A DNA stretch of 64,000 nucleotides from Phycisphaerae bacterium (GCA_016782885.1 JADHXQ010000011.1:1-64000); one strand, 5' to 3'. Shown: positions 8,385 through 38,834, numbered from the stretch's first letter. Numbers and translations are program-made. The notes: generated by a model from the sequence alone, not told the origin.

Positions 8385-8417
8385 AAACGGAAAATGATTA
8401 CCCCAGGAGGTAGAATG

Positions 8418-9023
8418 ATGAACGGTATTACAAAAGTTGCGATGTTGTCGGTAGTGTGTCTGGTCTGTTCCGGTGCAATGGGTGCGAGCTACTCTCTCGT
8501 CCCGCCTGACAGGGATCTCGGCGACCTGGACCACTACAGGTACTATACTTGGGGACTCGACACCCCCTGGAGCGTCATCCCGGACGTGGACAACAACTAC
8601 GAGCAGGCCATCGGCGCCTCGCTGTCGTTCAAATCGATCCGGAACTGGAATAACCAACCCAACGTGCTGTACATCCACCTGCTGGATAACGCGCCCCTGG
8701 GCATCAGGACGGGATATGACGGACAGGGCGGTGGAGACAACTTCGCCGGCCAGGGGATCGTGCTGACCGTCTATCAGAATCTGCCTTCTACGGCCCAGAA
8801 TCTGAGTTACTCGTTCTCCGGCGATGAGATTGAGGCCTTGAACGACTATGCCGCGGACGGACGCTTCGCTCTCGGATTCGACCCCGACTGCCATTTTTAC
8901 AATTGCGGAGTGAAACTGGACATCGACACCGCCGCGCAGGTGGTGCCCGAACCGGCGACAATGACGCTGCTGCTTGTCGGCGGCGGATTGGTGGCTCTTC
9001 GCAAACGGCGGAAGCAGAAGTAG
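8418..9023 (+). CDS. PEP-CTERM sorting-domain protein
   Basis: Exported protein of 201 residues intended for exosortase-dependent surface anchoring. It has an N-terminal signal peptide (residues 1-23, ending GAMGA) and a C-terminal sorting signal VPEPATMTLLLVGGGLVALR followed by a basic KRRK cluster. The central domain of about 150 residues (DRDLGDLDHYRYYTWG, FNLPNV-like strands) resembles the beta-sandwich cargo of other PEP-CTERM proteins and gives no enzymatic clue. Two adjacent ATGs exist; 8418 has seven-base spacing from AGGAGG, 8415 only four. No exosortase gene lies in the window, so the sorting enzyme must be encoded elsewhere. Confidence 0.85.
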   Translation: MNGITKVAMLSVVCLVCSGAMGASYSLVPPDRDLGDLDHYRYYTWGLDTPWSVIPDVDNNYEQAIGASLSFKSIRNWNNQPNVLYIHLLDNAPLGIRTGYDGQGGGDNFAGQGIVLTVYQNLPSTAQNLSYSFSGDEIEALNDYAADGRFALGFDPDCHFYNCGVKLDIDTAAQVVPEPATMTLLLVGGGLVALRKRRKQK

Positions 9024-9765: not shown

Positions 9766-11037
9766 TCAGTTGAGCAACCGATTGATCGCGTTGGGCAGTT
9801 GAAGGACTTTGACGGTGGTTGTCGATGCGCCGGGCGGTATGAAGCCCATCGCCTCCACATCATTCAAACCGTACGGGGCAAGGCTGCCATAGGACGAATT
9901 GTTGCCGTTCTGCAGCGTAACATGGTAAAGCTTCTTGGTGTTCTCGTGTGCGGCGATCAGGCGATTGTTGACCGCATCCCACGCCAGCGCCTGAAACTTG
10001 CTGTTTGGAACGGCGTCGTTGTCGACTATCTGGGTAATCGCCCCGGTCGTCTTATCGATCTTGAGGATGCTGTCCTCGCTCTCATCGGTAACGTACAGCA
10101 CCCCGTTACCGTCGAACGTCATGCCCTCGCCTTCCCCTACTTTCTCGCTCAACCCTTCCATCGCTCCGACGTCGCTGGTGACCTGGGCGGTGAGCTTGTT
10201 GATAAGCAGCAGGTGATCGGCCGTTCCCGACCCGCCTTTTTGCCCGAGCGCATAGAGCTTGCCATCGGTAGGGTCAATCGCCAGGCCGGTGATGTCTCCG
10301 GATGACCAGTTAATCGAGCCGACAATCTCAACAACGTTGGTCTGGGTGGTCGAGGCCGTGTTGACGTTGAATCGCATCAGGACCGGATCGGAATACGAGC
10401 CGATATTCCGCCCCGAAACCATATACGCCACACCATCGCCGTCGATCGTGAAGCCTTCGATATCACCCCTGGTGCGTTCGTACTCGCCATCGTCGTTCCA
10501 GTACAGCAGTCCGTATTTTGTCACATCCATGCTGCTCTGCGTATAGTCGGCGATTGAGAACAACATGCCGTCATCTTCGTTGACGCCCCAGAGAACCGTG
10601 TTCACCCCGACGCTGCCCTGTGATTGTCCCGGTGTCGAAAGCTTGACGGTCAGCGAATAGACCGCGTCCCCGACTGTCCCGGTGGCGATAAGGGTGGCCG
10701 GATCGCTGTTGTTGTCAGCCAGGTCGCCATCGCCCGGATCGATCACCCTCCAATTGAAGCTTCCCGACCCCAGCGACCTGGTGGTCGTTACGCCGTTGAG
10801 GTTTGCCCGCCAACTGTCGGTATTGTTGATTTGGGTCATCGCGTGTTCGCTCGCCGAAAACGCGAGCATCCTGGCTTCGGCCCACTGGTTGGCTTGAGTG
10901 GTGCTTCGCGTCTGGACGCGGGAGACCGCGACGCTTCCCAAGCCGATGGCGGTAACGGCCATCGCGACCCCGAGCACCGAAACATACGTCGAACCGCGCC
11001 TCCGAGCGCTATAGGATTGTCTGTTATTGTCACTCAT
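9766..11037 (-). CDS. PilX/GspK-like minor pilin with C-terminal beta-propeller-like domain
   Basis: 423-residue protein. A prepilin-like N-terminus has the cleavage context RRRG|STYVSV (Gly14/Ser15) followed by a hydrophobic helix. Glu at +5 is absent, as in GspK and PilX tip pilins. Residues from about 135 onward form repeated strands with motifs such as ITGLAIDPTDGKLYALG, GMTFDGNGVLYVTDESEDSIL and FQALAWDAVNNRLIAAHE, typical of NHL or DUF4394/SBBP-type propellers. The start at 11037 has GAGGA seven bases upstream; an in-frame ATG at 11058 overlaps the previous gene. It is the last gene of the pilin cluster. A tip adhesin or sensor role is inference. Confidence 0.82.
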   Translation of the reverse strand: MSDNNRQSYSARRRGSTYVSVLGVAMAVTAIGLGSVAVSRVQTRSTTQANQWAEARMLAFSASEHAMTQINNTDSWRANLNGVTTTRSLGSGSFNWRVIDPGDGDLADNNSDPATLIATGTVGDAVYSLTVKLSTPGQSQGSVGVNTVLWGVNEDDGMLFSIADYTQSSMDVTKYGLLYWNDDGEYERTRGDIEGFTIDGDGVAYMVSGRNIGSYSDPVLMRFNVNTASTTQTNVVEIVGSINWSSGDITGLAIDPTDGKLYALGQKGGSGTADHLLLINKLTAQVTSDVGAMEGLSEKVGEGEGMTFDGNGVLYVTDESEDSILKIDKTTGAITQIVDNDAVPNSKFQALAWDAVNNRLIAAHENTKKLYHVTLQNGNNSSYGSLAPYGLNDVEAMGFIPPGASTTTVKVLQLPNAINRLLN

Positions 11038-11050
11038 TTTCGATTCCTCG

Positions 11051-11695
11051 TCATTCACTCGAAACCGGGACCTTGTTGAGGACGTTCGTACCGGAAGTCA
11101 CCCGATCGCTCGACTCCGTGCCGATCTGGAGTTCCACTCCCGCCCAGGTGACGAACGTGGTCTCCACCGACGGCGCCTGGTCGGCCGTACCGACATCACT
11201 GCGAATCGCAGCCACCGAACTTTGCTGATCGAACGGATCGGTTACCGTAACCGTAATCAGTTTGATGCCCTGGTCGGTCGCGCTGACCGAACTCAGATCG
11301 GTCGGCAGGACGTACTGCACGGTAACGCTCCGTGTCCATCCGTCCATACCGGCCAGGGGCGTGCCGTCCTTGTCCTGCGGTGTGGCCGACCAGTTGTGGT
11401 AATCGTCCACGTCGTCGAAACTGCTGCGATTCGAGCCGGTTTCGGAAGCTTCCCGCCCGAAGACGGGGGTTTCAGTCAGATCGGCATAGCTGGCCTGGAG
11501 TATCTCAGCCATCAGTTGCGACGCCAGCGCCGGCGCTCGCGACTGAGTCTGCCTTATCTTTCTGCCTCGGACCGACGAACCGAGCGTGTTGATCACCATC
11601 ACGAGCATCCCGCCTACGATCAGGATCGACATTACACTCTCGACGATGGTGAATCCCAGCCTGCGACAGGCCTTATTGTTCTGGTTTCTGGTCAT
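11051..11695 (-). CDS. PilV-like minor pilin
   Basis: 214-residue type IV pilin-like protein. The leader MTRNQNNKACRRLG ends at Gly14, followed by FTIVESVMSILIVGGMLVMV with the conserved Glu19 at mature position +5. The globular part is beta-rich (SVTVQYVLPTD, IKLITVTVTDP), consistent with PilV/GspI-like pilins. ATG 11695 overlaps the stop of the upstream pilW-like gene (ATGA) and is preferred over a longer frame that would begin inside that gene. It is probably co-assembled with its neighbours into the pilus tip complex. Confidence 0.85.
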   Translation of the reverse strand: MTRNQNNKACRRLGFTIVESVMSILIVGGMLVMVINTLGSSVRGRKIRQTQSRAPALASQLMAEILQASYADLTETPVFGREASETGSNRSSFDDVDDYHNWSATPQDKDGTPLAGMDGWTRSVTVQYVLPTDLSSVSATDQGIKLITVTVTDPFDQQSSVAAIRSDVGTADQAPSVETTFVTWAGVELQIGTESSDRVTSGTNVLNKVPVSSE

Positions 11696-13329
11696 TCGGG
11701 GTCCCCTAACGTAGTGTAGGTTCCGTAGACGGTGAACCGCATGTCTTTCGAGCTTTCCGGGCTGCTCCACGAACTGCCGCTGTTCCAGGTGGTCATCCAG
11801 TGGGAATTGGACGTCATGGGATTCCCGTCCTTCTCGTATTCGATCTTGGCAATCGTCGAACTCCCTGAGGAATATGCGACCACCAGGCAGAATCCATCGT
11901 CCGGGCTCAGCTCGCCCAGGGGCGTGAAGTTGACCCGGACCCACTCAAAACTGCTGCTCAGGTCGGATTCATTGACAGTGCCCTGAACACGAATGGAGGA
12001 TGTGGGCTTCTGGTTTGAATCGGCGTTGCGAATCTGCACCGAGATCACGCCGTTGGTGCTGCGGTCTTTCTTGAGCCTGATCCGTACGCCGTTGATTTTC
12101 CAGCTTTCGGTGTTCGACGGGAGGGTCGGCTTGAAGTACTGTGCGGACCACTCGTCATCCTTGATCTTGTCGTCCTTGAAATACCCGCCCGGGGCGTTAT
12201 CGTGCTCGATGAGTGCCATCTCGGCGCTCTCCTGGGCCTCGGCGTCGCCGCCGGAACTTGCCGGTGCCAACAGCAGTTCAGGCCCGTTGCCCCCAGAGTG
12301 CTCTTTGGAGGCAAACTCCATCCACGCCCAGGAATTGTGCTTGATGTTCAGCGTGATCGATCCGGAAGAGCGGTAGGCTTCGACGGCCGATGCAGTCAGA
12401 GGAATCTCGATCCATTGGTTGGCCTGATAAGACGAGGAAGGGTCTATCGACCCGATCTCCGAACCGCGGATCCGGGTAAAATAACTCTGGCCGGCACCGC
12501 TGGCATTTTCCCATTTCTTGGGGTTGCGGGACTGGTAGCTGCGATACCTATAGCAGGCGGCCCCGGCTTCGTACTGACCGTTCTTTGTTCCCTCATACCA
12601 ACTGGCGTTGTTTGCGGTATGCACCATGGGGTAGACGCTGAGTTTCGCGCTGCCATAGGCTCTGGTCGTAAACAGCCTGAGCTTCGCCGAGGCGATAGTG
12701 TAGTCCACACCCGAAAGATCGAAGCCCACCAGCCCCGTGTAGTAATCGTATCCGCGGACAATCATGGTCGTCCGCCCGCCGTAGCTCCTCGTGCTGGAGG
12801 AACCTGAGCTGACGAGCATCGTATCGCCAAGGGCCGCAACGGTGACTTCCTCAGCCTCGGCATCTCCCGTATCGGCGGCAGCCGGTTGGACGACCTTCGT
12901 AATATAGCCCAGATTGAAGTGGTGAACGTCTTCGGCGATAGTCACCACCGGCCCGCCGTTGTATTGTCGGGTAAGCGTCCCGCCGGCGCCTCCGGACCAG
13001 GCATACCTGACCGATTCTGACAATCCGTCGCCGTCGCGGTCGGGGACCTTGAACGCGGCGGTCGTGCTGGTGCGTTCGGTGAAGCTTTCTGCCAGACTGA
13101 GATCTGTCGTGATCTGCGAAATGGTATCGCGTGCCTGGTAGGTGTTTTCGGTCGCTTCGATGTTATTGTACGACGCCATGGAGGCAATCGACATCACCGA
13201 GACCATCCCGCCCATCAGCGTGGTGGTCACGCCGATCGAGACGACGGCCTCCATCAGCGAAAAACCCCTTGCCCGGCGTCCGCGTCTCGGGTGGGGGATG
13301 AGTTTTCGTTTTCTGCCCGGATAAATCAT
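11692..13329 (-). CDS. PilW-like minor pilin carrying a DNRLRE domain
   Basis: 545-residue protein, far longer than a normal PilW. The prepilin leader ends at Gly22, followed by FSLMEAVVSIGVTTTLMGGM with Glu27 at +5. Residues about 40-150 are the usual PilW beta domain (ITTDLSLAESF, ADVHHFNLGY-like). Residues about 168-360 match a DNRLRE domain: SYGGRTTMIVRG, then LVGFDLSGVDYTIASAKLRL, WYEGTKNG, QWIEIPLTASAVEAY, and a closing EFASKEHSGGNGPELLLAP. The last about 175 residues form a second beta-sandwich (choice-of-anchor-like). DNRLRE domains occur in secreted carbohydrate-active and adhesin proteins, so a presentation role at the fibre tip is plausible. Confidence 0.83.
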   Translation of the reverse strand: MIYPGRKRKLIPHPRRGRRARGFSLMEAVVSIGVTTTLMGGMVSVMSIASMASYNNIEATENTYQARDTISQITTDLSLAESFTERTSTTAAFKVPDRDGDGLSESVRYAWSGGAGGTLTRQYNGGPVVTIAEDVHHFNLGYITKVVQPAAADTGDAEAEEVTVAALGDTMLVSSGSSSTRSYGGRTTMIVRGYDYYTGLVGFDLSGVDYTIASAKLRLFTTRAYGSAKLSVYPMVHTANNASWYEGTKNGQYEAGAACYRYRSYQSRNPKKWENASGAGQSYFTRIRGSEIGSIDPSSSYQANQWIEIPLTASAVEAYRSSGSITLNIKHNSWAWMEFASKEHSGGNGPELLLAPASSGGDAEAQESAEMALIEHDNAPGGYFKDDKIKDDEWSAQYFKPTLPSNTESWKINGVRIRLKKDRSTNGVISVQIRNADSNQKPTSSIRVQGTVNESDLSSSFEWVRVNFTPLGELSPDDGFCLVVAYSSGSSTIAKIEYEKDGNPMTSNSHWMTTWNSGSSWSSPESSKDMRFTVYGTYTTLGDPE

Positions 13330-13820
13330 TCCTGAACCTCCGCTTTTCCACTGTCGGCGTCGAGCACTATGGTCTTGCTGTAATCGCCTACCGCCACGAC
13401 CACTGTCCCGCCGCTGTCGGGAACACCGTATCCGTCGAAGGTCACGTCGCCATTACCGTCGAAATTGGCAGAGACGATTCTGGCTTTGTATGGCGCCGAC
13501 GACAGGGACACCGAATAATCCGACGCGGAAGTTTTCATGTCCGCCACGCCGGGGAGTTGGTATGCGTTATTTGCGACGTTGAAATTGACCGCCTGGGAGG
13601 TCGACGATATTCTGGCGCGCTTTCTGGCAAAGGTCAGATCTGCGGCTACTTTCCTGGCGGCCGATGCGGTTCGATAGCGGGCAACGGCCTGCCCGTAGCG
13701 TGGAGTGGCAATCGCCGCCAGTATCGCCATGATCACCATCACGACGACCAGTTCGAGCAGCGAGAAACCGCCTCCGCTCCGTCTCGTTCTCCGTCGATCA
13801 CTGTCCGGGCTCTTGCCCAT
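13326..13820 (-). CDS. GspH/FimT-like pseudopilin
   Basis: 164-residue pseudopilin. The leader ends at Gly18, followed by FSLLELVVVMVIMAILAAIA with Glu23 at +5. Then comes a helix with AARKVAADLTFARKRARIS, a hallmark of GspH/FimT, and beta strands ending FDGYGVPDSGGTVVVAVGD. ATG 13820 sits seven bases after GGAGGAG; a GTG at 13844 is less likely. The stop overlaps the start of the PilW-like gene by four bases, so translation is coupled. Confidence 0.87.
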   Translation of the reverse strand: MGKSPDSDRRRTRRSGGGFSLLELVVVMVIMAILAAIATPRYGQAVARYRTASAARKVAADLTFARKRARISSTSQAVNFNVANNAYQLPGVADMKTSASDYSVSLSSAPYKARIVSANFDGNGDVTFDGYGVPDSGGTVVVAVGDYSKTIVLDADSGKAEVQE

Positions 13821-13983: not shown

Positions 13984-14463
13984 CTAGTACGTATTGTACG
14001 CCACGTCGGAAGAATCCTTCTCCGCATCAGTAGTGTTGGACTTGATCGTGCCCGAAGCGGCAGTGTAGATCCAACCAACGGTGTCGCCGGTGGCGGCGGC
14101 GATACCGACCTGGCCCTTCTTGGCGCCTACCGGAAGCTTAGGGACCTTGCGAAGGTACGGACCGTAAAGGTACGTCGAAGACTTCGTGGCGTTGGTAGCC
14201 CCTGCGCTGCTGCTGTACAGCGTCAGTTGATTGGCTATGGTGCCCACGGCGGGGTACGTCCCGTTGTGCTCGCCGGCGTACATGTCGATGGCATTACGCA
14301 AAACGGACAAATTACCGCTCAACGCCGCATCGGCCGCTCCGGCTGAACCGCGGGACATCCGGGGGATCGCAACAGCAGCCACAATACCCATGATCACGAT
14401 GACAATCACGAGTTCCAGCAGGCTGAAGCCGCTTGCCTTTCGTCTTTTTCTCCAACTATTCAT
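13984..14463 (-). CDS. Major type IV pilin / GspG-like pseudopilin
   Basis: 159-residue pilin. The short basic leader MNSWRKRRKASG is followed by FSLLELVIVIVIMGIVAAVA with Glu17 at +5, and then an alpha-helix and small beta-sheet (DAALSGNLSVLRNAIDMYAG; VPKLPVGAKKGQ; VGWIYTAASGTIKSN). The region GPYLRKVPKLPVG and the late WIYTAASG step resemble GspG-type pilins. ATG 14463 has GGAG nine bases upstream; an ATG ten codons earlier lies in the leader and is disfavoured. It is flanked by a terminator upstream and two hairpins downstream, consistent with separate and higher expression than the minor pilins. Confidence 0.9.
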   Translation of the reverse strand: MNSWRKRRKASGFSLLELVIVIVIMGIVAAVAIPRMSRGSAGAADAALSGNLSVLRNAIDMYAGEHNGTYPAVGTIANQLTLYSSSAGATNATKSSTYLYGPYLRKVPKLPVGAKKGQVGIAAATGDTVGWIYTAASGTIKSNTTDAEKDSSDVAYNTY

Positions 14464-14599
14464 TTGTTTAATCTCCGTTTCCTTAGAGTGCATCTCTGGT
14501 CAGCCAGCGACCGCCGTTGGCTTCTATCAACTGGAATCGACCAAGCGCAGGGTCGACTTAAGTTACGAATGATGTTTTTTCGACTCGGAGTCGGGCCTC

Positions 14600-14648: not shown

Positions 14649-15227
14649 TTATCGATTGACATTTTCGGGGGCTGCGGCATTGAGTTTCAATACCACTTCG
14701 GCGCCCTCGCAGGTCAAAACGGCCGTGTCAGCCGTTACAGATTTCAGTTCAAAACCATCTACCTTCTGCCCGATAGACACGCAGTCACCGTTGATTATCG
14801 CGATACTGCGGTCCGAGGCTGTAATGGCGCCCTTAAGCTGATGCGTGCGGGCAAACTCCTGTGCCTTAACCTCGGCGGAGTCAACTACGGGTTCCTCATC
14901 GACCACCACCTTGCCGCCTCGCGGGCCAACCCACTCAGGCGACGGGAGGAATGCGTCCTTAACTGCTGACGGTTCCAGACGACGTGAACGTGCAAGTGAA
15001 TCGAGGCGTTTTGCCAGGACGGTGCGAACTTCCGCAACCTGAGTCTCCCGGTCGTCAGCCGGAGAGAATACCTCCGCTGCGATCTCATCGCCCGCCTCGC
15101 CAATGGCGGCTTGGGCTTTGTCCGGACCGGCTGGGGAACCACCGGGCATTACGCGGTCGGCAAGGAATACCGCCACCGCGAGGCCCAGAACCGCGAACAT
15201 CACTTTATGTTTCTTCTGTATCTCCAT
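14649..15227 (-). CDS. PilP/GspC-like inner-membrane pilus assembly protein
   Basis: 192-residue protein with a single N-terminal transmembrane segment (VMFAVLGLAVAVFLADRVM) and a periplasmic domain. The C-terminal part (ITASDRSIAIINGDCVSIGQKVDGFELKSVTADTAVLTCEGAEVVLKL) has the SxxAIINGxxVxxGxxVxGxxVxxIxxxxVxL pattern of the GspC/PilP HR domain, which contacts the secretin. Start 15227 has GGAG six bases upstream; ATG 15239 is an alternative. It belongs functionally with PilM-N-O but is separated from them by a plus-strand gene. No secretin gene lies in the window. Confidence 0.78.
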   Translation of the reverse strand: MEIQKKHKVMFAVLGLAVAVFLADRVMPGGSPAGPDKAQAAIGEAGDEIAAEVFSPADDRETQVAEVRTVLAKRLDSLARSRRLEPSAVKDAFLPSPEWVGPRGGKVVVDEEPVVDSAEVKAQEFARTHQLKGAITASDRSIAIINGDCVSIGQKVDGFELKSVTADTAVLTCEGAEVVLKLNAAAPENVNR

Positions 15228-15459
15228 CGGTATCTCCATCGCATGAAGTAGACGATACACATCGGGAGAAAGCAAATGTAGTCGGTATTTTTTTATCCAA
15301 CGATACGTCTTTGTATATTAAGTAGCTACAGACAAGCAAACAATTGGCGGCGTTCCAATTGCCATGCCGTTTGACATCGCCGGGAAACACGATACAATCA
15401 CCGGGAAAACCCGCAGACGACCGCCCGGGGCGAATGAGTAACGTGCAGGAGATCGTGCA

Positions 15460-17814
15460 ATGACAGGACATAGGCATCTCAACCGATTCGAACAGGTTTC
15501 CTTTGCGCTCATTGCCTGGTTTGTTCTCTGCTCGAGCGCGGCGAGAGGGGCCAAAATCTATGTATCGCCCGATGGTAATGACAAATGGTCGGGGCAATTA
15601 CCCGCAACAAAAGCGGACCGCACCGATGGACCGTTCCGTACGCTGAAGCGGGCCTCCGCAACTACCGGGCCCGGTGACACCTGTTTCATTCGCGGGGGTA
15701 TATACCACCAGACTCTCCGCCCCGCACAGAGCGGTAAGCCGGGGCAGCCGATCACGTTCAGAAACTACGAGAACGAGCGAGCGGTCATCAGCGGCGCCGA
15801 CCGTGTAACTGGCTGGAAGAGAGGCGACGCGGGCGTCTACACGGCCGGCGTCTCCTGGGATTTAAAGGACGGTAACCAGGTCTTCGCCGATGGGCGGATG
15901 CTAATCCAGGCCCGCTGGCCCGACATCTCCGGAACACTTATGAAGCCCGTTCGCGCGCGGGCCCAAAGCGGGACTGCCAACACGCTGACCGACCCGAAGC
16001 TCACCGGCGCCGACGGCGCCTGGAAGGGCGCATTGCTTTGGTGTGCCGGAGGATCGGAGTGGATCTGCTGGTCCGCGCGCGTCACCGCATACAACGCCAA
16101 AACTCATACGCTGACGTTCGACCGGAAACAGACCAACCGGTGGTACCAACCGAGAAAGGGAAATCCGTACGTGCTGATGGGCGTGCGAAAGGCACTGGAC
16201 TCAGGCGGTGAATGGTGGATGGACGGGAAAAATGGCAAGCTGCATCTTCGCCCACCGGGCGGGAAGACGCCCGCGGCGCTCGGTCTCGGTGTCAAACACC
16301 GCTTCGACGCGATCGACCTGTCCGCACGGTCCCACATTCAAATCATCGGATTGCACTTCCACGCCGCGGGTATCCGCACGGACAAGGCATCGTCGGACAT
16401 CGTTCTGCGAGGTCTGCGGGGCAGCTACGTCGCCCACTCCTACGAAAAGGACATCTCCGGAAAGTCCGGCGTTTTGATACACGGCAGGCGGATCGACGTG
16501 TCCGACTGCGAGTTTGCCTTCAGTTCCGGAAGCGTGGTCGACATGCGCGGCAGTGATAACCGGCTGGTCAACTGCTATATCCACAACGGTAATTACGGCG
16601 CCAAGTGGCGCGGTACGCTCGCCGCGGCCGGGCAAAGGCACGTGATCGCCTACAATACCATTCGCCATTCCGGTCGCGACCTGGTCAACATCCACGGGCT
16701 CACCGAGAGCCTTATAGAATATAACGACCTGTCGGACGCGGGCTGGTTGACCAGCGACCTCGGTATGATCTACGGGCACAACACCGACTTCGGTAACACG
16801 GAGATCCGCTACAATCTCGTTCACGACAACCACGCCCCGGCGTGCAATATGGGAATCTACTTCGACCACCTCAGCCACAATGTCATCGTCCATCACAACG
16901 CCGTCTGGAACGTGCGGCGCGACCCGATCCGCATCAACAACCCCAGCTACAACAACCTCGTCTACCACAACACCTGCTGGAACACTGGACCGATCACGAC
17001 GTTCGACCACAGCCGGCGCAACGACCTGTTCGGCACGCGATACCACAACAATATCCTCAGCGCCCCCATCCGCCTGCCAAAGCACGTGTCCGTAACGCAC
17101 AACCTCGTCGCCAAGGCCCCCGCGCTGGTCGATCCGGCCGGGCGTAATTTCGCGCTGAAGGGCAACTCGAAGGCCCGCAATACAGCCCTGGTCATCGAAG
17201 GTATGGTCTCAGCAGACATCGGCGCACTGGAGTTCGAGAAGAAGCCCTGGAAGGCGGGACACGACTTTTCCCGCTCGGCGCCACCGGTGAGCGTATTGAA
17301 TCGCCCGAAAATCGGGTACATGAACCTCGTAAGAAACGCCTGCTTCGAGTTGCCAACGCTGGAAGGCTGGACCAAAACCGGCGCCCGAAAAGCCCAATTG
17401 ACCCCCGGAAACGGGTGGGGCAACAATTTCGGATCCGGTAAGGCACACGCCACGGGAACATCCAAGCTTGAGCTTCGCCTCGGGCCCGGCGCAGACGGCA
17501 TCGAGCAAACAGTCAACGGTCTGCATCCGAAAACTCGCTACACGCTGTCGGCGTGGTTAAGAGTTTCGGACAAGAACGAGTCGATCAGTCTGGGCGTCAG
17601 GGGCTTCGGCGGAAAGGAAGTCTCCACGTCGACAAGCAGCGCCGCCTGGGTCCGTAAAATAGTCACGTTCGAGACCGGACCAACCGCCCGCAGCGTAACA
17701 ATCACCCTGAAAAAGACATCCTCCGGTCCGGGACGCGCCTGGTGCGACAACGTAGCGTTACCCCTTGCTCAGATTCACATCCGCCAGGGCGTACCAGAGC
17801 AGGTCGACCCGTAG
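15460..17814 (+). CDS. Secreted parallel beta-helix protein with C-terminal CBM4/9-like module
   Basis: 784 residues, exported (signal peptide ending SSAARG). The opening KIYVSPDGNDKWSGQLPATK...DGPFRTLKRA and FIRGGIYHQTL is the DUF1565-type start of right-handed beta-helix proteins. Residues about 290-560 contain repeated N-rich rungs (YNDLSDAG, IRYNLVHDNHAPACNMGIYFDH, VIVHHNAVWNV) like pectate-lyase folds. Residues about 620-770 form a CBM4/9-like sandwich (NACFELPTLEGWTKTG ... AWCDNVAL). The last 17 residues are read from the antisense strand of pilO, because the 3' ends overlap by 57 bases. It is probably a polysaccharide lyase or glycosidase; substrate is unknown. Confidence 0.85.
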   Translation: MTGHRHLNRFEQVSFALIAWFVLCSSAARGAKIYVSPDGNDKWSGQLPATKADRTDGPFRTLKRASATTGPGDTCFIRGGIYHQTLRPAQSGKPGQPITFRNYENERAVISGADRVTGWKRGDAGVYTAGVSWDLKDGNQVFADGRMLIQARWPDISGTLMKPVRARAQSGTANTLTDPKLTGADGAWKGALLWCAGGSEWICWSARVTAYNAKTHTLTFDRKQTNRWYQPRKGNPYVLMGVRKALDSGGEWWMDGKNGKLHLRPPGGKTPAALGLGVKHRFDAIDLSARSHIQIIGLHFHAAGIRTDKASSDIVLRGLRGSYVAHSYEKDISGKSGVLIHGRRIDVSDCEFAFSSGSVVDMRGSDNRLVNCYIHNGNYGAKWRGTLAAAGQRHVIAYNTIRHSGRDLVNIHGLTESLIEYNDLSDAGWLTSDLGMIYGHNTDFGNTEIRYNLVHDNHAPACNMGIYFDHLSHNVIVHHNAVWNVRRDPIRINNPSYNNLVYHNTCWNTGPITTFDHSRRNDLFGTRYHNNILSAPIRLPKHVSVTHNLVAKAPALVDPAGRNFALKGNSKARNTALVIEGMVSADIGALEFEKKPWKAGHDFSRSAPPVSVLNRPKIGYMNLVRNACFELPTLEGWTKTGARKAQLTPGNGWGNNFGSGKAHATGTSKLELRLGPGADGIEQTVNGLHPKTRYTLSAWLRVSDKNESISLGVRGFGGKEVSTSTSSAAWVRKIVTFETGPTARSVTITLKKTSSGPGRAWCDNVALPLAQIHIRQGVPEQVDP

Positions 17815-18333
17815 CTTTGTGGGTTCTGTGGGATTTGTCGGATCGCCTTTGACTTCAAAAGACGCCACTGATGTGTCGGGAAACTCTCTTTGCAATTCCC
17901 GCAGAAGCTTAACGCATGCCGTGAAACTACCGCTTCCGACGAGGTAGATTGGCACGGTCTGGTATCTGCTGCCGCGCAAGCACTTGTCCGGTCGAAGGCG
18001 GTCGAGTTTCAACCCGCATTGTCCCGCAAGGTTCGCTATACGGCCCAAGTGGCTGTTGACTTGACCGACCGGTTTCAGATCGACGGTGTTATCCGCCAAT
18101 TCCTGCCTGATCTGCGTGATTTCAGAGGCGACACGCGCGACTTTCGCGGACAGTTTTCTCGCCTTTTCATGCTGGGCCTTGAGTTCGATCTCCCTGAGAG
18201 CAAAACCCTGATGACGCCGGATAACCGGATAAACACCCACCGCATAGGCGATCAGGGCCAGGAGGGCGCAGATGCCTACCGCGGCCAGATCAACATACAA
18301 AGGTTTGAGTTTCGTGAACTTCATTCGATTCAC
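17758..18333 (-). CDS. PilO-like pilus assembly protein
   Basis: 191-residue bitopic inner-membrane protein: basic N-terminus, transmembrane helix (VDLAAVGICALLALIAYAVGV), coiled coil (EIELKAQHEKARKLSAKVAR), then an alpha/beta domain with VPIYLVGSGSFTACVKLLRELQREFPDTSVASFEV, typical of PilO/GspM. The likely start is the GTG at 18333, which overlaps the pilN stop; ATG 18324 is an alternative. Its last 57 bases overlap the 3' end of the convergent beta-helix gene. PilO pairs with PilN to link the cytoplasmic PilM ring to the PilP/secretin part. Confidence 0.85.
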   Translation of the reverse strand: MNRMKFTKLKPLYVDLAAVGICALLALIAYAVGVYPVIRRHQGFALREIELKAQHEKARKLSAKVARVASEITQIRQELADNTVDLKPVGQVNSHLGRIANLAGQCGLKLDRLRPDKCLRGSRYQTVPIYLVGSGSFTACVKLLRELQREFPDTSVASFEVKGDPTNPTEPTKLRVDLLWYALADVNLSKG

Positions 18334-18977
18334 CGTTTCCGGTCGGTTGTTCCTTCAAAGCGGCACTTCAGGCGGAAGGCAATGGCTTTGGCATTCAGGA
18401 AAGGCTCTCGGATAGTGCTTACGAGCCCTACGTTATCAAACATACCGGATCGTTCCAACCGCAGGACAAACTGCGAAACGGCCGTTTGCGACCGCCCGAA
18501 ACCTGATACAGTCAAGACAAAAACCATCTTCTGTTTCTTCTCTTCCAAAACACTTGTCACAGGGATCTTCGAATCGCGCCGCCTGCCTGATGCCCCCTCC
18601 AGCGGGATCATTATCTCGTCGAGTTCGCAACTCCTGAGCACAACTTCATTCCCAAGCCCGTCTGCCAGCAGCGCCAGCACCACACTCCAGTCGGGCTGAC
18701 GACCAACGCCCCTGAATGTGTCAAGCTTCCAACGCGATGCAACCAATTGCTCCCGCAACCCTGAGATAGTCCTTCCCGATGTCGCAATGCGGTCTCTGGT
18801 CTGTCGGATTTCACCGGCCAGCGGATCCGGTCCGACGCCCCATGTCCTGTGGCAGGTGATGCAGATCATCACAAGCATCCCCACAAAAGCCACCCCGACC
18901 GCCAACCACTGGCGCACGCGAGCGCGGCAGGCCTTGGCCTGACGTCTGGGAGCCGGCATGAGGTTAAAGCACTTCAC
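18330..18977 (-). CDS. PilN-like pilus assembly protein
   Basis: 215 residues: a short N-terminal motif FNLMPAPRR that corresponds to the PilM-binding INLLP peptide of PilN, one transmembrane helix (LAVGVAFVGMLVMICITC), a coiled coil (IRQTRDRIATSGRTISGLREQL) and a periplasmic domain ending VSQFVLRLERSGMFDNVGLVST, the usual PilN/GspL signature. It overlaps pilM by four bases and pilO by four bases, so the three form a coupled translation unit. Confidence 0.87.
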   Translation of the reverse strand: MKCFNLMPAPRRQAKACRARVRQWLAVGVAFVGMLVMICITCHRTWGVGPDPLAGEIRQTRDRIATSGRTISGLREQLVASRWKLDTFRGVGRQPDWSVVLALLADGLGNEVVLRSCELDEIMIPLEGASGRRRDSKIPVTSVLEEKKQKMVFVLTVSGFGRSQTAVSQFVLRLERSGMFDNVGLVSTIREPFLNAKAIAFRLKCRFEGTTDRKR

Positions 18978-20032
18978 TTATTTCTCTCGGAAAACTGCCC
19001 CAGTCCAGCCGCCGCGGTAAGCGACGGACCGAACTGCTGTTCGATATCCGGCGAACATTTTACGATATCGCCTGAGCGAACCGTTCGTACGTAAAAATCA
19101 AGGACCGAATTCAGTTGCCCCTCGAGTCCGGGTATCCGCGCTCCCCCCCCGACCAGCAGCAGCGTCTCGGGCAATGCGTCGGGATACTGGTTGGCGAGAT
19201 AGGAAAGCGGTATCCGCATTTCTTCGACCAGCGCCTCGCAGTAGGCGTTAACGGCAAGGTTAACCACCCGGACCGAGGCCGGAGTGATGTCCGCACATTC
19301 GGGCGAAAGGCCTACCTGGCGAACGAGGAGTTCGGACTTCTTGTGATGCAGTTTCAACTCCCTGCCCAGCGAGTCAACAACCGAACCGATACCGCACTTG
19401 ACCAACTTCCGTTCGTAGACAACCACGCCCTGGTAGATGAGAACCAGATCGGCCTGATCCCATCCAAGGTCCAGAATTGCCGCAATGCCCGTGACGCCCT
19501 GTAGCAGCGGGCTGCACGCCCGCGATACGGCAGATGCGTGTATGTCCAGTGCGTAGACGTCGAGGTGTTCGGCCTCGACGATATCCACAAGTTCATCGGC
19601 CTTTTCGTGGCTGAAACCTGCCGCCATCACATATGTAGCCCCTCCTGCGCGGGCCGGAGCGGGCAGATCCCAGCAGGCTATCTCGAACGAATTCGGTTCG
19701 CGGCGGTGCATTCTGGACAGTTCGCCCCTGGCCAACTGCTCGATCGGAGCACCCGAAGATCTGGGCGGAAGCTCCATTATACCGGTTAGCAGTTGACTGA
19801 ATGGAACGGCAAGGACTACCCGGCGCCCCTTGAACAAACCCTTGGCAAACAGGTCGCGAAGTTGGACGATATCGGCGCTTTCCACCGGACCGCCCGGATT
19901 GTCGCGCGGGATAGACCCCGCCGCGGTGACGCACCACCGCCCCGGGGCGCCACGGAGCTGGACAGCCTTTATATGCCGCCCCCCAATGTCAACGCCTATC
20001 GGCAGAGAAGATGTTCCAGACAACAACCTCAC
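18974..20032 (-). CDS. PilM-like actin-fold pilus assembly ATPase
   Basis: 352-residue cytoplasmic protein with the actin/FtsA-like fold: GVDIGGRHIKAVQL is phosphate loop 1, AAILDLGWDQADLVLIYQG is phosphate loop 2, and ETLLLVGGGARIPGLEGQL is the adenosine motif. It forms the cytoplasmic ring that binds PilN. The GTG at 20032 is preferred because GGAGG lies six bases upstream; a TTG at 20038 overlaps the gspF stop. It is followed directly by pilN. Confidence 0.9.
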   Translation of the reverse strand: MRLLSGTSSLPIGVDIGGRHIKAVQLRGAPGRWCVTAAGSIPRDNPGGPVESADIVQLRDLFAKGLFKGRRVVLAVPFSQLLTGIMELPPRSSGAPIEQLARGELSRMHRREPNSFEIACWDLPAPARAGGATYVMAAGFSHEKADELVDIVEAEHLDVYALDIHASAVSRACSPLLQGVTGIAAILDLGWDQADLVLIYQGVVVYERKLVKCGIGSVVDSLGRELKLHHKKSELLVRQVGLSPECADITPASVRVVNLAVNAYCEALVEEMRIPLSYLANQYPDALPETLLLVGGGARIPGLEGQLNSVLDFYVRTVRSGDIVKCSPDIEQQFGPSLTAAAGLGQFSERNK

Positions 20033-20034
20033 TA

Positions 20035-21321
20035 TCAACCTCCACCAGTCATTGATGTTACGTCGAACAATGGCATAAACATGCTCAACGCAACGAAACC
20101 GACCAGCAATCCCATCACGATAAGGATCACCGGCTCGATAATACTAGTCAACGCTTTAAGGGTTCCTTCGTTTTCCTCGTCAAGGAACTCGGCCAGGTTT
20201 AGCAATAACGGACCAACCTGCCCACTTTTCTCACCACTCCTGGTGGCCTCGTAGACCGCCGGAGTTATCAAATCGGTATCTGCGAAGACCGAACTGATCT
20301 CCTGTCCCTGGGAGACGGCCTTCTCCGCACGGTCCATAAGTTCGGTATAGTGAACGTTGGAAGTGGTGTCTCTGGTCAGCGTCAAGGCTTCCAGAACGGG
20401 CACGCGACTTTCCAGCAGTACACCCATCATCCGAACGATACGCGCGGTCGAAAAACTCCTGACAATCCCGCCGATCTTCGGCATGCGGAGGACGAGTGTG
20501 TCGAACGCCCGTTTACCGCCGGGCGACCTGAAGTAGGTCCTCAGGCCCACGATCACAGCAACGAGCCCTCCAATGAGAGCCCACCAGTAATTTACGGCTA
20601 TGTCACTGGCTGCCAGGAGGATGGCCGTCGTCGGCGGTTGTTCGGCGTCGAGGCTATCGAACAATTCGCCAAAACGCGGAATGACAAATACCATCAGCAG
20701 CACCAGCACCGACAGCGCCACCACACTCAGGAGGCAGGGATAGATCATCGCTCCCTGGATGGCGGAACGGATATGCAGACGCTTGTGCGTCAACTCGGCC
20801 AGACGGTCGAGCATCCCGGGCAACTCTCCGCTCGTTTCACCGGCGGCAATCATGTGGCGATAAATCGAATCGAAGCACTCCGGGTGCGAACCCATCGCCT
20901 CAGACAGCGCACTGCCCTCCTCGAGACGCGCACGAACATCACCAATAGCCTTGCGCCATCCGGAATCCTTGATCTGGCGTTCGAGCGCCAACAACGCCTG
21001 GGTCAACGGCGTGCCCGATGAAACCAATACGAACAACTGCCTGGTGAACATCGCCAGGGTCTTCAACCGGCGGGTCTTGCTGCCGCCAACACGCGCCTTG
21101 CCCTCGCCCGCGATCTGGGTCGCAGGAGCCCCAGTGCCCGCAGCCCCACCGCCGCCGCCGGACTTCCGACGCGGACCGGAACCTCCCCTGACCGGTGTAA
21201 TGTCAGCAACGAACAGATCCTGTTTTCGCAGATCTTCGGTGGCCTCTGCAATGTCAGTGGCCTCGATAACATCGCTGACCTTCTGCCCGGTCTTGTCGAA
21301 TGCCTCGTATACCAGTTTCAT
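20035..21321 (-). CDS. GspF/PilC-family inner-membrane platform protein
   Basis: 428 residues. The cytoplasmic N-terminus (KLVYEAFDKTGQKVSDVIEATD) is followed by a Gly/Ala/Pro-rich linker (RKSGGGGGAAGTGAPA) and two GspF domains, each with the pattern LARLTxxxL/TRQLFVLVSSGTPLTQALLALER. Three transmembrane helices end with LIVMGLLVGFVALSMFMPLF. It transmits movement of the GspE/PilB ATPase to the pilin platform. ATG 21321 has GAGG nine bases upstream. The Gly-rich linker replaces a shorter segment of most relatives. Confidence 0.92.
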   Translation of the reverse strand: MKLVYEAFDKTGQKVSDVIEATDIAEATEDLRKQDLFVADITPVRGGSGPRRKSGGGGGAAGTGAPATQIAGEGKARVGGSKTRRLKTLAMFTRQLFVLVSSGTPLTQALLALERQIKDSGWRKAIGDVRARLEEGSALSEAMGSHPECFDSIYRHMIAAGETSGELPGMLDRLAELTHKRLHIRSAIQGAMIYPCLLSVVALSVLVLLMVFVIPRFGELFDSLDAEQPPTTAILLAASDIAVNYWWALIGGLVAVIVGLRTYFRSPGGKRAFDTLVLRMPKIGGIVRSFSTARIVRMMGVLLESRVPVLEALTLTRDTTSNVHYTELMDRAEKAVSQGQEISSVFADTDLITPAVYEATRSGEKSGQVGPLLLNLAEFLDEENEGTLKALTSIIEPVILIVMGLLVGFVALSMFMPLFDVTSMTGGG

Positions 21322-21364: not shown

Positions 21365-23095
21365 CTATTCGGGGGTATCTTCACATTCCTCACCGTTGCT
21401 GTGAGTCACGTTGAGAATTTCTTCAAGCGTCGTCTTACCGTCCTTGGCCAGCAGCAACCCTTCCTGGCGGAGCGTCAAACCGCCCTCCTCGGTCCAGCGA
21501 TCGCGGATCTCATGCGGTGAGACGCCCTTATGCACGAGCCGCCGAATCGAGGTGGATGCTTCCATCACCTCGTATATTCCGACGCGACCCTTGTATCCGG
21601 ACTTGTGGCATTTGCTGCAGCCTTCGCCCCGTATGAACGTCTGTCCCTTAAAGTTGGCCAGGCCGGCCTCCTCGAGGAAAACGTCGTCGGGAACATAGGA
21701 GACTTTGCAGTGTTTGCAGACGGTCCGCGCGAGCCTCTGGGCCAGTACACCATTGATCGCGCTGGAAAGCAGGTAGGGTTCGACTCCCATGTCGACCAGG
21801 CGCGAAACGGCGCCCGGGGCGTCGTTGGTGTGTAAAGTAGCCAACACCAGGTGACCGGTCAGAGAGGCCTGAATAGCCACCCGCGCAGTCTCTTCATCGC
21901 GAATCTCGCCGACCATGATGACGTCCGGGTCCTGACGCAGAATACTTCGCAGCGCCCTGGCGAACGTCATGCCAATCGCATCCTGAACCTGGATCTGGTT
22001 TATCAGGTCCAACTGGTACTCGACCGGATCCTCAACCGTAAGGATGTTCAACTCGGGACTGCGGATCAACTGCAAAGCCGAGTACAGCGTCGTTGTCTTA
22101 CCGCTTCCCGTAGGCCCGGTAACCAGCACCAGACCATAGGGTTGGTGCAGGATGCGAAGGAATGCTTCCAGCGTTTCTTTCCGGAAGCCCAAGTCGTTGA
22201 GTTGGGTTTTCAGATTGCCCTTGTCGAGTATTCGCATGACGAGTTTTTCACCGAGCAGTGTCGGCATGCTGGACACGCGCAGGTCGACTTCCCGTCCGTC
22301 AGCCCCGATCCGAACACGCCCTTCCTGCGGGAGGCGTTTCTCGGCAATGTCCATCCGCCCGATGACTTTTATGCGCGATACTATCGAGGGATGCATGCCC
22401 GCCGGAGGAGCCGGCAGGTCGCGAAGCACACCGTCAAGCCTGTAGCGCATTCTCGTGGAGACCTTATCCGGTTCGATGTGAATGTCGCTGGCGCCTTCCC
22501 GTATCGCCTTGAGAAGGATCATGTTTATCAGGTTCACCACGGGGCTGTCACCGGAGATATCAGAGAGATCGGTCATCGAGGAGTCTTCGTCCTCCTCTTC
22601 AAGGACTTCCACGTCGCCGCTGGAGATTGCGGCTATCAGGGCATCCATATCAGTTTCGGCGCTGGTGAAGCGATCGATGTGCTCCAGTATGTTCGCCTCG
22701 GTGGCCAGGATCGCCCTGATGGTGCATCCGGTTAACTGGCGCAGGCGATCGACGCTTGGAAGGGATTGCGGTTCAGCCATCGCCACGGTCATGGTATCGT
22801 GGACTTTGAACATCGGAATGGCCCTGAGATGGCGAGCTTCTTCCTCACCGATGATTCCCAGCAGAGATGGATCGGCCAGGCCCTTGCGCAAAATGCAGTG
22901 ACGCACTCCCAGGCGTTTGCCCAGCGCGCACAGGATCTCCTCGACGGTTACCAGGCCCTGATCGACGAGCATTTCGCCAAGTCTCTTACCGGTGCGTTTC
23001 TGCTCGGCGAGAACTTCCGTCAGCGTATCTTCGGTAACGATCCCTTCTTCCACAAGGACTTCACCGATGCGAATCTTTTTTGCAGTAACCGTCAT
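21365..23095 (-). CDS. GspE/PilB-family assembly ATPase
   Basis: 576-residue hexameric motor for pilin assembly or type II secretion. An N-terminal MshEN-type domain (KIRIGEVLVEEGIVTEDTL, then GLVTVEEILCALGKRLGV) precedes the catalytic domain. Walker A is GPTGSGKTT with Lys333, an Asp box follows (RSILRQDPDVIMVGEIRDEETA, which is also the Walker B), and the His box is GHLVLATLHTND. A tetra-Cys zinc motif is seen as CKHC...CSKC, typical of assembly ATPases and absent from retraction ATPases. ATG 23095 has GAGG seven bases upstream and overlaps the STAS gene stop. Confidence 0.95.
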   Translation of the reverse strand: MTVTAKKIRIGEVLVEEGIVTEDTLTEVLAEQKRTGKRLGEMLVDQGLVTVEEILCALGKRLGVRHCILRKGLADPSLLGIIGEEEARHLRAIPMFKVHDTMTVAMAEPQSLPSVDRLRQLTGCTIRAILATEANILEHIDRFTSAETDMDALIAAISSGDVEVLEEEDEDSSMTDLSDISGDSPVVNLINMILLKAIREGASDIHIEPDKVSTRMRYRLDGVLRDLPAPPAGMHPSIVSRIKVIGRMDIAEKRLPQEGRVRIGADGREVDLRVSSMPTLLGEKLVMRILDKGNLKTQLNDLGFRKETLEAFLRILHQPYGLVLVTGPTGSGKTTTLYSALQLIRSPELNILTVEDPVEYQLDLINQIQVQDAIGMTFARALRSILRQDPDVIMVGEIRDEETARVAIQASLTGHLVLATLHTNDAPGAVSRLVDMGVEPYLLSSAINGVLAQRLARTVCKHCKVSYVPDDVFLEEAGLANFKGQTFIRGEGCSKCHKSGYKGRVGIYEVMEASTSIRRLVHKGVSPHEIRDRWTEEGGLTLRQEGLLLAKDGKTTLEEILNVTHSNGEECEDTPE

Positions 23096-23427
23096 CAAAT
23101 AGCCTCGGGGGTATACTCGACACTGTCGGAATACTCGAACAGCGACGCCAGTTCAGTTAGCTCCAGTATCTCGCGAAGAGTCTCGTCGGCGCCAGCGAGT
23201 TTCAGCGCCCGTCCGCTCCGAATAAGTTGCTCGGTCGCGTCGACGAGCACCTCGAGGCCTTTGCTGTCGATCTGTGTAACCTTCGAAACGTCGATCACAA
23301 GATCCTCCGGATTCTCGGCCATAACGCCCGCGAGAACTTCACCAAACTGCACCGCATCGTCCCCGACGAGTGAATCGTTCGGGATAAGCATCGTCATGTC
23401 CTCGTAGTGCTCCTGGTCGATCTTCAT
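23095..23427 (-). CDS. STAS-domain protein heading the pilus locus
   Basis: 110-residue anti-sigma-antagonist-type protein. The core LVIDVSKVTQIDSKGLEVLVDA carries the conserved IDSxG site whose Ser is phosphorylated in SpoIIAA-type proteins. No partner kinase or phosphatase is nearby. Its stop overlaps the start of the assembly ATPase (TGATG), so expression is coupled to the pilus machinery. A role as a phospho-switch or scaffold for the motor is inference. Confidence 0.85.
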   Translation of the reverse strand: MKIDQEHYEDMTMLIPNDSLVGDDAVQFGEVLAGVMAENPEDLVIDVSKVTQIDSKGLEVLVDATEQLIRSGRALKLAGADETLREILELTELASLFEYSDSVEYTPEAI

Positions 23428-35582: not shown

Positions 35583-38500
35583 TTAAGGTTCTATATCGAA
35601 GCAGACTAGTGTTCCGTTGCTTTGTGCGACGAAGATTCGCCCGGACGCCATGGTTAGTCCGTCCCATACCGGCGGCGAATCCAGGAGTTTCTCGCCTCGT
35701 ATCTTCCCGGTCTTGCGATCGACGATGAGCAGTCTACCGCCTTTGCGGCCTTCCAGGGCGGTGTAGGGATCCTTCGGGGATATCTCGTCTGGCAGACCGG
35801 CCACCAGCAGTGCGTTCGAAGTTAGCAGCATAGCCTGGCCTCGCACGGGTATTTTGCTCCGCCATTTGAATTTCGGCCTGGTCGTTCGGTAACCGAGATA
35901 TGAAAACGCGGTCTTCTCGAACTGCGCGAGCGGTTCGCTTTTTTCCGGTAGTTCGGCTTCCATCAGCAGATATCCGCTTGTGACCTGGAAGGTTGAACTT
36001 CGGTGCATGCTGGCGGCCGCCCTGGCGGCGTAGATGCGACGATCGTCGTGTACGATATTGCTTCCGGTGATTTTGCAGGCCCCCACGAAAGCCCAACCGA
36101 AACGATTGAACATCGAGCCGTCAAGCATTCCACCGGTGGCCAACAGGAAGGGTCTTTGCGGCGCGGGTGATAAGGGTTTACCGGGAAAGAGCGGTTTGCT
36201 CTGCAAATAGACCGTTTTTCCGTCGCTGACCAGGATGTGATTGAGCGCTCCGTCAGCATCGTAGACCTGGTCTGAGTGTGGTATTGGCTTGTTGCTGTGC
36301 GAAGTGGTGATTCGGCGTTGCTTGCGTATTTCACCAGTGGCGGGGTCGAGGGCGAATGCGTACATGCCTCCGTCGAGGTACGACGATCGCCCGGCGACGA
36401 AGCAAACCAGATCCTCGCAGACCAGAACGCTGCCATGCACCGGCCAGGACGACTCGATCTGACCGCGGGCGAGTATCAGATTCACCGCCGGTGCAGCGCG
36501 GAATCGCCAGGCGAGCTGTCCGTCTTTTGCGCGCAGGCAATAGACGTGCCCGTCGGAGGAACCGAAGAGGAGACGGCCTTTGTTGAATGTCGGGGCGCTA
36601 TCGATCGGCCCGGAGGCGGTGAAACTCCAGATTTCTTTACCGTCGGCGGCGTTGAGCGCGAGTATTCGATGTGTGTTTTTGCAGTTGACAAACACCGTCC
36701 GGCCAACGCAGATCGCCTGGCCGATCGCGTCGTGAAGATCGATTTTCCACGCCCTGTTAAGTGCGTCGACCGGTTGTGCGGCGTAGCCTTGCCTGCGAGG
36801 GTTTTTGCGGTGCATAGGCCAGTCGTGGGCGCCTGCCGGTGCGGCTTGGGCTTTTTGATGGGCGGGCCCTTTGGCCAGTCTCGGCGAGGTCTCCGGCGTC
36901 AGGTCCGCCCCGGTGGACAGAGCCAGCAGTCCGCCGACCTTGATGCGAATGTGACACGCGCACGGATCCGGCGGCACATACAGCATCCCGTTGGCCGGAA
37001 CGATGCCGAATCGGCATTCTCCCCGCAGCCAGTGGTTGACGGAAATTTCACCGGTTTTCAGATATGCCAGTTCCGTTCCGCGTCGTCCTGAGAGTACGAA
37101 ACGTTCGGTCGCGTTGTTGCGGTAGCAGCGATGATGATGCCCGATGTTGAAAATCGTTCGCGTGTCGAGTCGTTTTTCGATCTCACCGGTTTTTGGATTT
37201 ATCGCCAGCATCGCGTATTTGATGTCATCGGGATTTACCGGATCGGCGCCCCTCATTTTGCTCTCGATGTGTTCGTGAGCCCAGAGTTTTCCGCCGATCA
37301 GGAATACGTCCGCGTGGATGCCCCATGCGAAGGAGCCTATCCGGCGGTTGAGCGACCAAAGCGGTTTGCCCGTTTTCGCGTCGCAGGCGTACAGGTCGCA
37401 TGGAATGGTGTGGAAGGTGTTTCGCAGTTTGCCTACCGGCTGGGCCACATACAGGCGTTCGTCGTCGGCAAGCACCGTGCAGTTATCGCTCATGTTCACC
37501 CCGAGCATCATACGATGCGTGGGATGCTCGCCTCGCGGATGGGACCACAGGCGTTTACCGTCTTGCAGCGCGTAAGAGACGATTTCGGTTTTTGTAATCG
37601 CGAACACATTCTTCGAGCGGACTGTAAGCTCCAGGTGGGTTCTGGTTCCCACCGCGTCGTAACGCCCGGCAAGTGCGTCAAGCCACGGCGAAGCCCATAG
37701 CTTCCGGCCCGACTGCGGATCGATAACCACGATCTTCTTCCTGAGCCCCGGCGAGGGGGGCTTTTTTCCGCGGGTTGGCCTGATGGGTTGCGCCGCGGGC
37801 CTGTCATGAACCGCCAGAATCAGTTTGCCATCGGCCAGGAGCAGTTCGTCTGCGTAATCAGTTCCCTCCAGGACCTTGATCGCCATTCCGGTCCGCGCAT
37901 CGAGAACCGAGACCGGGGCGTTGAATCCCATCGTAACGTAGAGCCTGTCGCCGTCGACAACCATCCGTTTGGGCAGTTGGATCGGCTGGGCGAACCGGAC
38001 GTTCTGCCTCACGCCCCAACTTTTCCAGCCCCAGTTCTTTATGGGCTTCTTCCAGAGCAACAATCCGTTAAACGCGTCCCGTGCGATCAGGGAGAACTTT
38101 CCGCCGATGTATGGATGAAATGTGGACGGCGGCGATTCGTCGACAATCGCAAACAGGCGCCCTCCGCCGCTGACCATGGCGCTGGTGGCTAGAACCTCGT
38201 CGTGATGGCGAGAGTGCTTCGGCGCCGCGACCCAGCGAAGAGCCTCGGGCCGACCGACGCGAGTGTCCTTCGATACGGCGTTACCGTCCGCCGAGTGCAG
38301 AAAATGAGTCCACTCGTCCATATCCGCGGGCCACGGCTTGACGGTTTTCGCCCATCGCCCGCTTTTCTTGATGCAGACCGCGCCAAGCGGACAAAGCACG
38401 CGCATAATCTCGCCGATCGGAACGTTCGCCGATCCGTCGGAGACCACCAGATTAACCAGATTGTCCGCATACGGAAGGCGTTTGGACGTCCAGTGCATCA

Positions 38501-38792: not shown

Positions 38793-38834
38793 AGCAGTGA
38801 TTGTATCCAACACGCCGTCCCAAACAAGCGTTAA

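Follow-up and report, generated by a model that had tools for sequence, protein, structure and literature searches.

Two minor pilins encoded in a 64,000-nucleotide stretch of DNA from a Phycisphaerae bacterium (GCA_016782885.1, JADHXQ010000011.1:1-64000; hereafter, the window) carry large extra domains behind their pilin modules. The PilW/GspJ-like protein (11692-13329, minus strand; 545 amino acid residues) contains a CBM96/DNRLRE domain and a C-terminal jelly-roll, and the PilX/GspK-like protein (9766-11037, minus strand, ATG at 11037; 423 residues) contains a beta-propeller. Both belong to an 11-gene type-4-filament operon on the minus strand of the window. Sequence comparison across 39 planctomycete loci with both PilW and PilX indicated an exchange of outer modules on pilin modules that are themselves conserved. 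The operon may build a filament that displays exchangeable, probably polysaccharide-binding tip modules and is probably regulated by cyclic di-GMP (c-di-GMP), a reading to which we give an even chance.

Domain architecture of PilW and PilX

The pilin module of PilW (residues 1-150; 12880..13329, minus strand) comprises the prepilin leader, alpha1 and the pilin sheet, begins with an N_methyl motif (GFSLME, with Glu5), and was kept in 32 planctomycete loci. In the AlphaFold2 models, which were of single chains, the predicted local distance difference test (pLDDT) score exceeded 90 over most of its sheet. The DNRLRE/CBM96 domain (residues about 155-360; 12250..12867, minus strand) lies between this module and the jelly-roll. 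It was matched by the Pfam family CBM96 (PF24517) at 3.2e-10, with a score of 40.5 bits (cut-off 26), and the signal was strongest over the N-terminal half of the domain. The NCBIfam DNRLRE model (NF033679) was covered nearly whole by residues 173-352 at 8.6e-8, and its 32.4 bits were 1.6 under the cut-off of 34. The domain aligned end to end with DNRLRE PEP-CTERM proteins of relatives, and a profile built on it and its relatives found a DNRLRE domain-containing protein in the PDB (8wab, 1.9e-5). AlphaFold2 confidence was low over this stretch, as expected because no homologue was supplied for it. The domain is bordered by a linker repeat, GDAEAEE/GDAEAQE, with 16 of 20 bases identical; 2 of 389 control pairs were equally good, and the repeat is a weak hint that CBM96 was inserted into PilW. 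No CBM96 domain other than that of PilW was found in the window's genome.

The C-terminal module of PilW (residues 365-545; 11695..12237, minus strand) was modeled as an all-beta domain with a pLDDT of 90-98 over residues 365-540. Foldseek comparison with the PDB placed jelly-rolls of phage baseplate and capsid proteins at the top, with weaker matches to CBM28 and CBM11 (E about 0.01-0.02). No Pfam family matched this module, and direct sequence searches of the PDB with whole PilW and whole PilX returned no matches.

In PilX, the pilin module (residues 1-138; 10624..11037, minus strand) was modeled with a pLDDT of about 97. Its N-terminus reads RRGSTYVSVLG and does not have Glu at position 5. 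Glu5 was absent from all 29 aligned members of the PilX family, as in GspK, and present in the W, V, H, and G pilins of the operon. The minor pilins have class III leaders with a G/A cleavage site, and the models of PilW and PilX contain the alpha1 helix and the sheet. Within the propeller domain (residues 145-403; 9829..10605, minus strand), residues 231-381 matched three Pfam families above their cut-offs, namely SdiA-regulated (PF06977; 1e-9, 38.4 bits against 21), DUF6923 (PF21959; 5e-7), and Phytase-like (PF13449; 2e-6). The model of residues 145-403 was all-beta with modest confidence (pLDDT mostly 40-70). It was matched by 208 PDB chains at E <1e-3, and among the 50 of these that were listed, most were propellers, many of them six-bladed (NHL, gluconolactonase, YWTD, and the designed Pizza6). 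A profile of the propeller and its relatives also hit propellers of known structure, with E-values down to 2.4e-13. A search of viral contigs with PilX found no relatives. The domain pairing and the prepilin-type N-termini put forward in the original prediction, which had described a DNRLRE-type domain and a second sandwich on PilW and a propeller-like region on PilX, were confirmed by these profile and structure comparisons, with PilX taking the GspK-like form of the pilin module.

Relatives of the outer modules

The nearest relative of the PilX propeller by far was a secreted PEP-CTERM protein of the same genome (L041:4766-5794, minus strand; G000:C172), with 43% identity; the next relatives had about 30%. 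No match to the propeller was found in either congener. Within the same family and class, most relatives of the CBM96 domain were PEP-CTERM proteins whose sorting tail follows the domain directly. Judged by these relatives, both CBM96 and the propeller are secreted modules of a generic kind. The jelly-roll looks specific to tip pilins: a search of 392 genomes sampled across the phylum gave ten non-self hits, each of them in such a protein (nine PilW and one PilX). In other species, PilV and PilX also contained clear homologues of the jelly-roll of the window, with E-values down to 1e-23, and it can be inserted in PilV of relatives. THUA and CBM4 modules likewise cross between subunits.

THUA is a second module without a name, of about 200 residues, observed in PilV of L052 (3708-4970) and in PilW of L104, L108, L109, L110, L111, L117, L120, and L126. 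It appeared Rossmann/ThuA-like by eye, not by profile, and had no Pfam match in the proteins scanned.

Exchange of outer modules among planctomycetes

We searched 60 relatives and added 32 loci, obtained by scanning genome contigs with an alignment of four close PilW sequences; these loci come from named records, among them Bythopirellula polymerisocia and Rhodopirellula maiorica. Outer modules were assigned by iterated profiles. The W-V-X gene order was kept in many planctomycetes, and the order H-W-V-X was conserved. In this survey, the pilin module was followed by an extra region of about 170-640 residues in most PilW and nearly all PilX proteins. Minor pilins of such size are usual in the phylum, and unusual size was rejected as a point of interest; the fold and the pairing seen in the window were not ordinary in this way.

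Among 43 PilW proteins, the outer module was a jelly-roll in 19, THUA in 8, THUA with a jelly-roll in 1, CBM4-like in 1, CBM96 with a jelly-roll in 1 (the window), and unclassed in 6; 7 had none, two of which (L103 and L115) were cut by a contig end. The 40 PilX proteins carried a beta-helix (26, in two groups), CBM4 with a beta-helix (4), a CBM4-like module (3), a jelly-roll (2), a propeller (1, the window), or no module (4). PilV was mostly bare (34 of 40), with a jelly-roll in 2, THUA in 1, and unclassed modules in 3. Pfam independently placed CBM_4_9 in 6 of 29 PilX homologues, and in others it recognized beta-helices of the DUF7305 or bactofilin-like type. In addition, a tandem pair of PilX homologues, both with an outer module of the beta-helix type, was observed at L043:5966-8728 (G007).

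The 39 loci with both proteins showed 17 combinations of module labels, 6 of which depend on unclassed PilW modules separated by length, and the combination of the window was unique. A tree built from 38 concatenated pilin modules called for at least 10 changes in the outer module of PilW and at least 9 in that of PilX, counts that give no direction of change. The window fell within a supported clade of five (98/96), the other members of which all had plain PilW and beta-helix PilX, so that both PilW and PilX of the window differ from those of all its nearest kin. The cassettes nearest to the window had neither CBM96 nor a propeller.

The original prediction had stated that no pilus tip with this pairing was described. 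The pairing itself held as unique in the survey. The literature searched, a partial library, described no such arrangement for propeller minor pilins or planctomycete minor pilins and contained no title or abstract on DNRLRE that concerned pili. The more general sense of novelty did not hold, since modular pilins, the class that bears grafted functional domains, have already been described in 264 architectures (PMC8179133), and large minor pilins are ordinary in this phylum.

The operon and neighboring genes

The genes of the operon run in the order PilB/GspE, PilC/GspF, PilM, PilN, PilO/GspM-like, GspC-like, GspG-like, GspH-like, PilW, PilV, and PilX. Profile searches place the ATPase, the platform protein, and PilMNO together with the minor pilins. 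On the minus strand, they encode the assembly ATPase with an N-terminal MshE-type c-di-GMP-binding domain (21365..23098; TIGR02538 1.4e-180, NF053729 65 bits, cut-off 38), the platform protein (20035..21321; PF00482 7.7e-55, TIGR02120 3e-106), PilM (18974..20038; PF11104), PilN (18330..18977; PF05137), the PilO/GspM-like protein (17758..18333; PF04350), a GspC/GspB-like periplasmic protein (14649..15275; weak matches to T2SSB, 1.3e-3, and GspC, 9e-4), the major pilin/GspG-like protein (13984..14493; TIGR01710 2e-12, 69% identity in the congener G001), a GspH/FimU-like minor pilin (13326..13820; PF12019, TIGR01708 2.5e-11), and, between PilW and PilX, a PilV/GspI-like minor pilin that has no extra module here (11051..11719; weak TIGR02523 match, same gene order in relatives).

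A gene on the opposite strand (15460..17814, plus strand) sits between the PilO-like and GspC-like genes and encodes a secreted, right-handed beta-helix protein (GH141-like; PF13229 5.8e-12) with CBM_4_9 (PF02018 1.7e-6). Its product resembles PDB 9rx2 (7.5e-14) and the glycoside hydrolase BT_1002 (5mqp, 2.8e-7), which we take to be a GH141 enzyme. The gene occupies the same place inside the operon in both congeneric genomes, with 71% identity in G001.

A PEP-CTERM protein gene (8394-9023, plus strand) lies 0.7 kb from the end of PilX and is convergent with it; a relative of its product was found in none of the fetched loci. Elsewhere in the window, a 1076-residue open frame (35583-38813, minus strand) combines a methyltransferase domain near the N-terminus with a PQQ/BamB-type propeller at 687-844, an odd pairing. 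Further PilB/GspE or PilT clusters were observed on contigs C92, C145, C101, C186, and C75 of the genome (G000), and secretins on C186, C174, C30, and C83.

Proposed role of the filament and alternatives

By its gene content, the operon is that of a type-4 filament. We leave its subtype uncertain because the matches to type II secretion system (T2SS) models were below the cut-offs, the ATPase was nearer to PilB, and PilT, a secretin, and GspD are encoded elsewhere. According to the model that we propose, the operon would build a pilus or a long pseudopilus, and the GspH-, PilV-, PilW-, and PilX-like minor pilins would form a priming complex that becomes the tip, with PilX, which does not have Glu5, at the apex like GspK. 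The modules of PilW (CBM96 and jelly-roll) and PilX (propeller) would extend past the pilin heads, so that the tip would display a cluster of beta-domains that most likely binds a polysaccharide, either environmental or from the surrounding matrix. Assembly would be driven by the ATPase with the c-di-GMP-binding domain. Over evolutionary time, the pilin heads would serve as a conserved socket that receives new outer modules, some of them drawn from secreted PEP-CTERM proteins. The pilin modules, the identities of the domains, the operon, the exchange of modules, and the kinship with PEP-CTERM proteins are read from sequence, and the tip location, a polysaccharide ligand, control by c-di-GMP, and any retraction are inferred.

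The original prediction had proposed a tip adapted to bind or process extracellular substrates. Homology argues well for a tip position: PilX resembles GspK in the absence of Glu5, and the gene order H-W-V-X is kept. An extracellular polymer is a plausible ligand because CBM96 is a carbohydrate-binding family, relatives have CBM_4_9 modules at the corresponding position of PilX, and the operon encloses a glycoside-hydrolase-like gene. CBM96 has been defined experimentally, and its founder, TM6-N4 of the alginate lyase Dp0100, binds alginate (PMC9971899). The processing part of the proposal was unsupported, as no catalytic family was found in the pilins. Alginate was considered as the ligand of PilW and dropped, since the Lys, Arg, and Tyr groove residues of TM6-N4 could not be mapped with confidence and the 8wab alignment is weak.

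Several observations weigh against the proposed tip filament. In the weak alignment with 8wab, viewed by eye, one of the two basic positions of PilW looks kept (Arg) and the other is not, so that an alginate ligand is not implied. The SdiA-regulated/NHL-like propellers form a family without a fixed ligand, and CBM96 and the propeller are each a single case among the surveyed tip pilins. The operon contains neither a secretin nor PilT, both of which lie elsewhere in the genome (three PilT-family genes, none in the locus of the window); surface exposure and retraction are therefore putative.

The same gene content could describe a T2SS pseudopilus, in which the tip modules would recognize periplasmic cargo (secreted hydrolases or their substrates) and help to expel it, with no filament on the surface. 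The best-named matches of the F, G, H, and C-like proteins were T2SS models, a GspC/T2SSB-like protein is present in the operon, and neither PilT nor PilY1 is present in the locus. However, all of the matches to the GspC, GspE, GspF, GspG, and GspH models were below the curated equivalog cut-offs, the ATPase, which bears an MshE-type domain, had a slightly better score as PilB, and PilM and PilN are pilus-type. Moreover, contig C186, away from the window, encodes a true GspD and, close to it, an ATPase of the GspE/PilB type, so the genome has a separate T2SS, and we regard a pseudopilus as fairly unlikely. Alternatively, the tip might bind a polymer of the cell's own matrix or outer layer (exopolysaccharide or PEP-CTERM proteins) for biofilm cohesion or surface sensing, not for substrate capture. 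The kinship of both grafted modules with secreted PEP-CTERM proteins, the PEP-CTERM gene close to PilX, and the long-known presence of DNRLRE domains in surface proteins (PMC2447325) are consistent with such a role. A common pool of modules, however, does not fix the ligand, and CBM_4_9 and the hydrolase point equally to foreign polysaccharides; this possibility is less likely than not. It is improbable that the modules are structural caps or fortuitous accretions without a ligand, for which any stable beta-domain would suffice. High turnover and the occurrence of module-free tips (7 of 43 PilW, including the two truncated cases, and 4 of 40 PilX) would fit that explanation, but the repeated use of carbohydrate-binding families and a dedicated jelly-roll seen only in tip pilins suggest selection for a role.

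Comparison with known systems

A close architectural likeness to the pilins of the window is found in Streptococcus sanguinis, whose PilB and PilC are modular type IV pilins in which an N-terminal pilin module is followed by a grafted folded domain, in some cases carbohydrate-binding, that is thought to be exposed at the tip (PMC8179133). In contrast to these, the window has two successive modules on PilW and a propeller on PilX, the grafted families being CBM96 and propellers, within a diderm GspHIJK-type set whose modules are exchanged between subunits. CofB and ComZ, named in the same paper, are also large minor pilins with big extra beta-domains, but the domains are unrelated and belong to other systems. 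In the priming complex of PilY1 with FimU/PilV/PilW/PilX, this set of four minor pilins also presents a propeller at the tip; PilY1 is a separate protein of family PF05567, whereas the propeller of the window, a member of the SdiA-regulated/NHL-like group, forms one chain with the PilX pilin. Kinship of PilX with PilY1 was rejected, as no PF05567 member in the genome reached the cut-off and PilX matched other propeller families. GspK of the T2SS (GspH-I-J-K tip) is likewise an apical minor pseudopilin without Glu5 that bears an extra domain, but in GspK this domain consists of alpha-helices and interrupts the sheet, and that of PilX is a C-terminal propeller. The CBM96/DNRLRE proteins such as TM6-N4 of Dp0100 (PMC9971899) share the domain family with PilW; theirs is on enzymes or surface proteins, and that of the window is on a pilin.

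Significance for planctomycete biology

In planctomycetes, polysaccharides reach the periplasm whole, by a route that is not known, and gold-labeled dextran has been seen on pili-like fibers of Planctopirus limnophila and Gemmata obscuriglobus (PMC5394234). We found no paper that names the proteins of these dextran-binding fibers. The pattern of exchange across the whole cassette is of more interest than the single pair in the window, because it makes the identity of the fibers testable; deletions of pilQ-like genes already made in P. limnophila (PMC11958385) render tests of the filament's role feasible. In its broadest form, the idea would be that Planctomycetota possess a dedicated GspH-PilW-PilV-PilX tip cassette, with heads acting as a fixed socket and outer modules rapidly re-armed through exchange between the three subunits and with the secreted PEP-CTERM proteome, and that this cassette forms the polysaccharide-binding, pili-like fibers of the phylum. 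We consider this wide generalization distinctly unlikely. The conserved tip cassette, with its frequent carbohydrate-binding modules, gives a concrete candidate at the gene level for the planctomycete fibers. The cassette also defines a jelly-roll domain without a name, present in our sample only on tip pilins, and offers a natural series of swaps from which it may be learned how filament tips change specificity.

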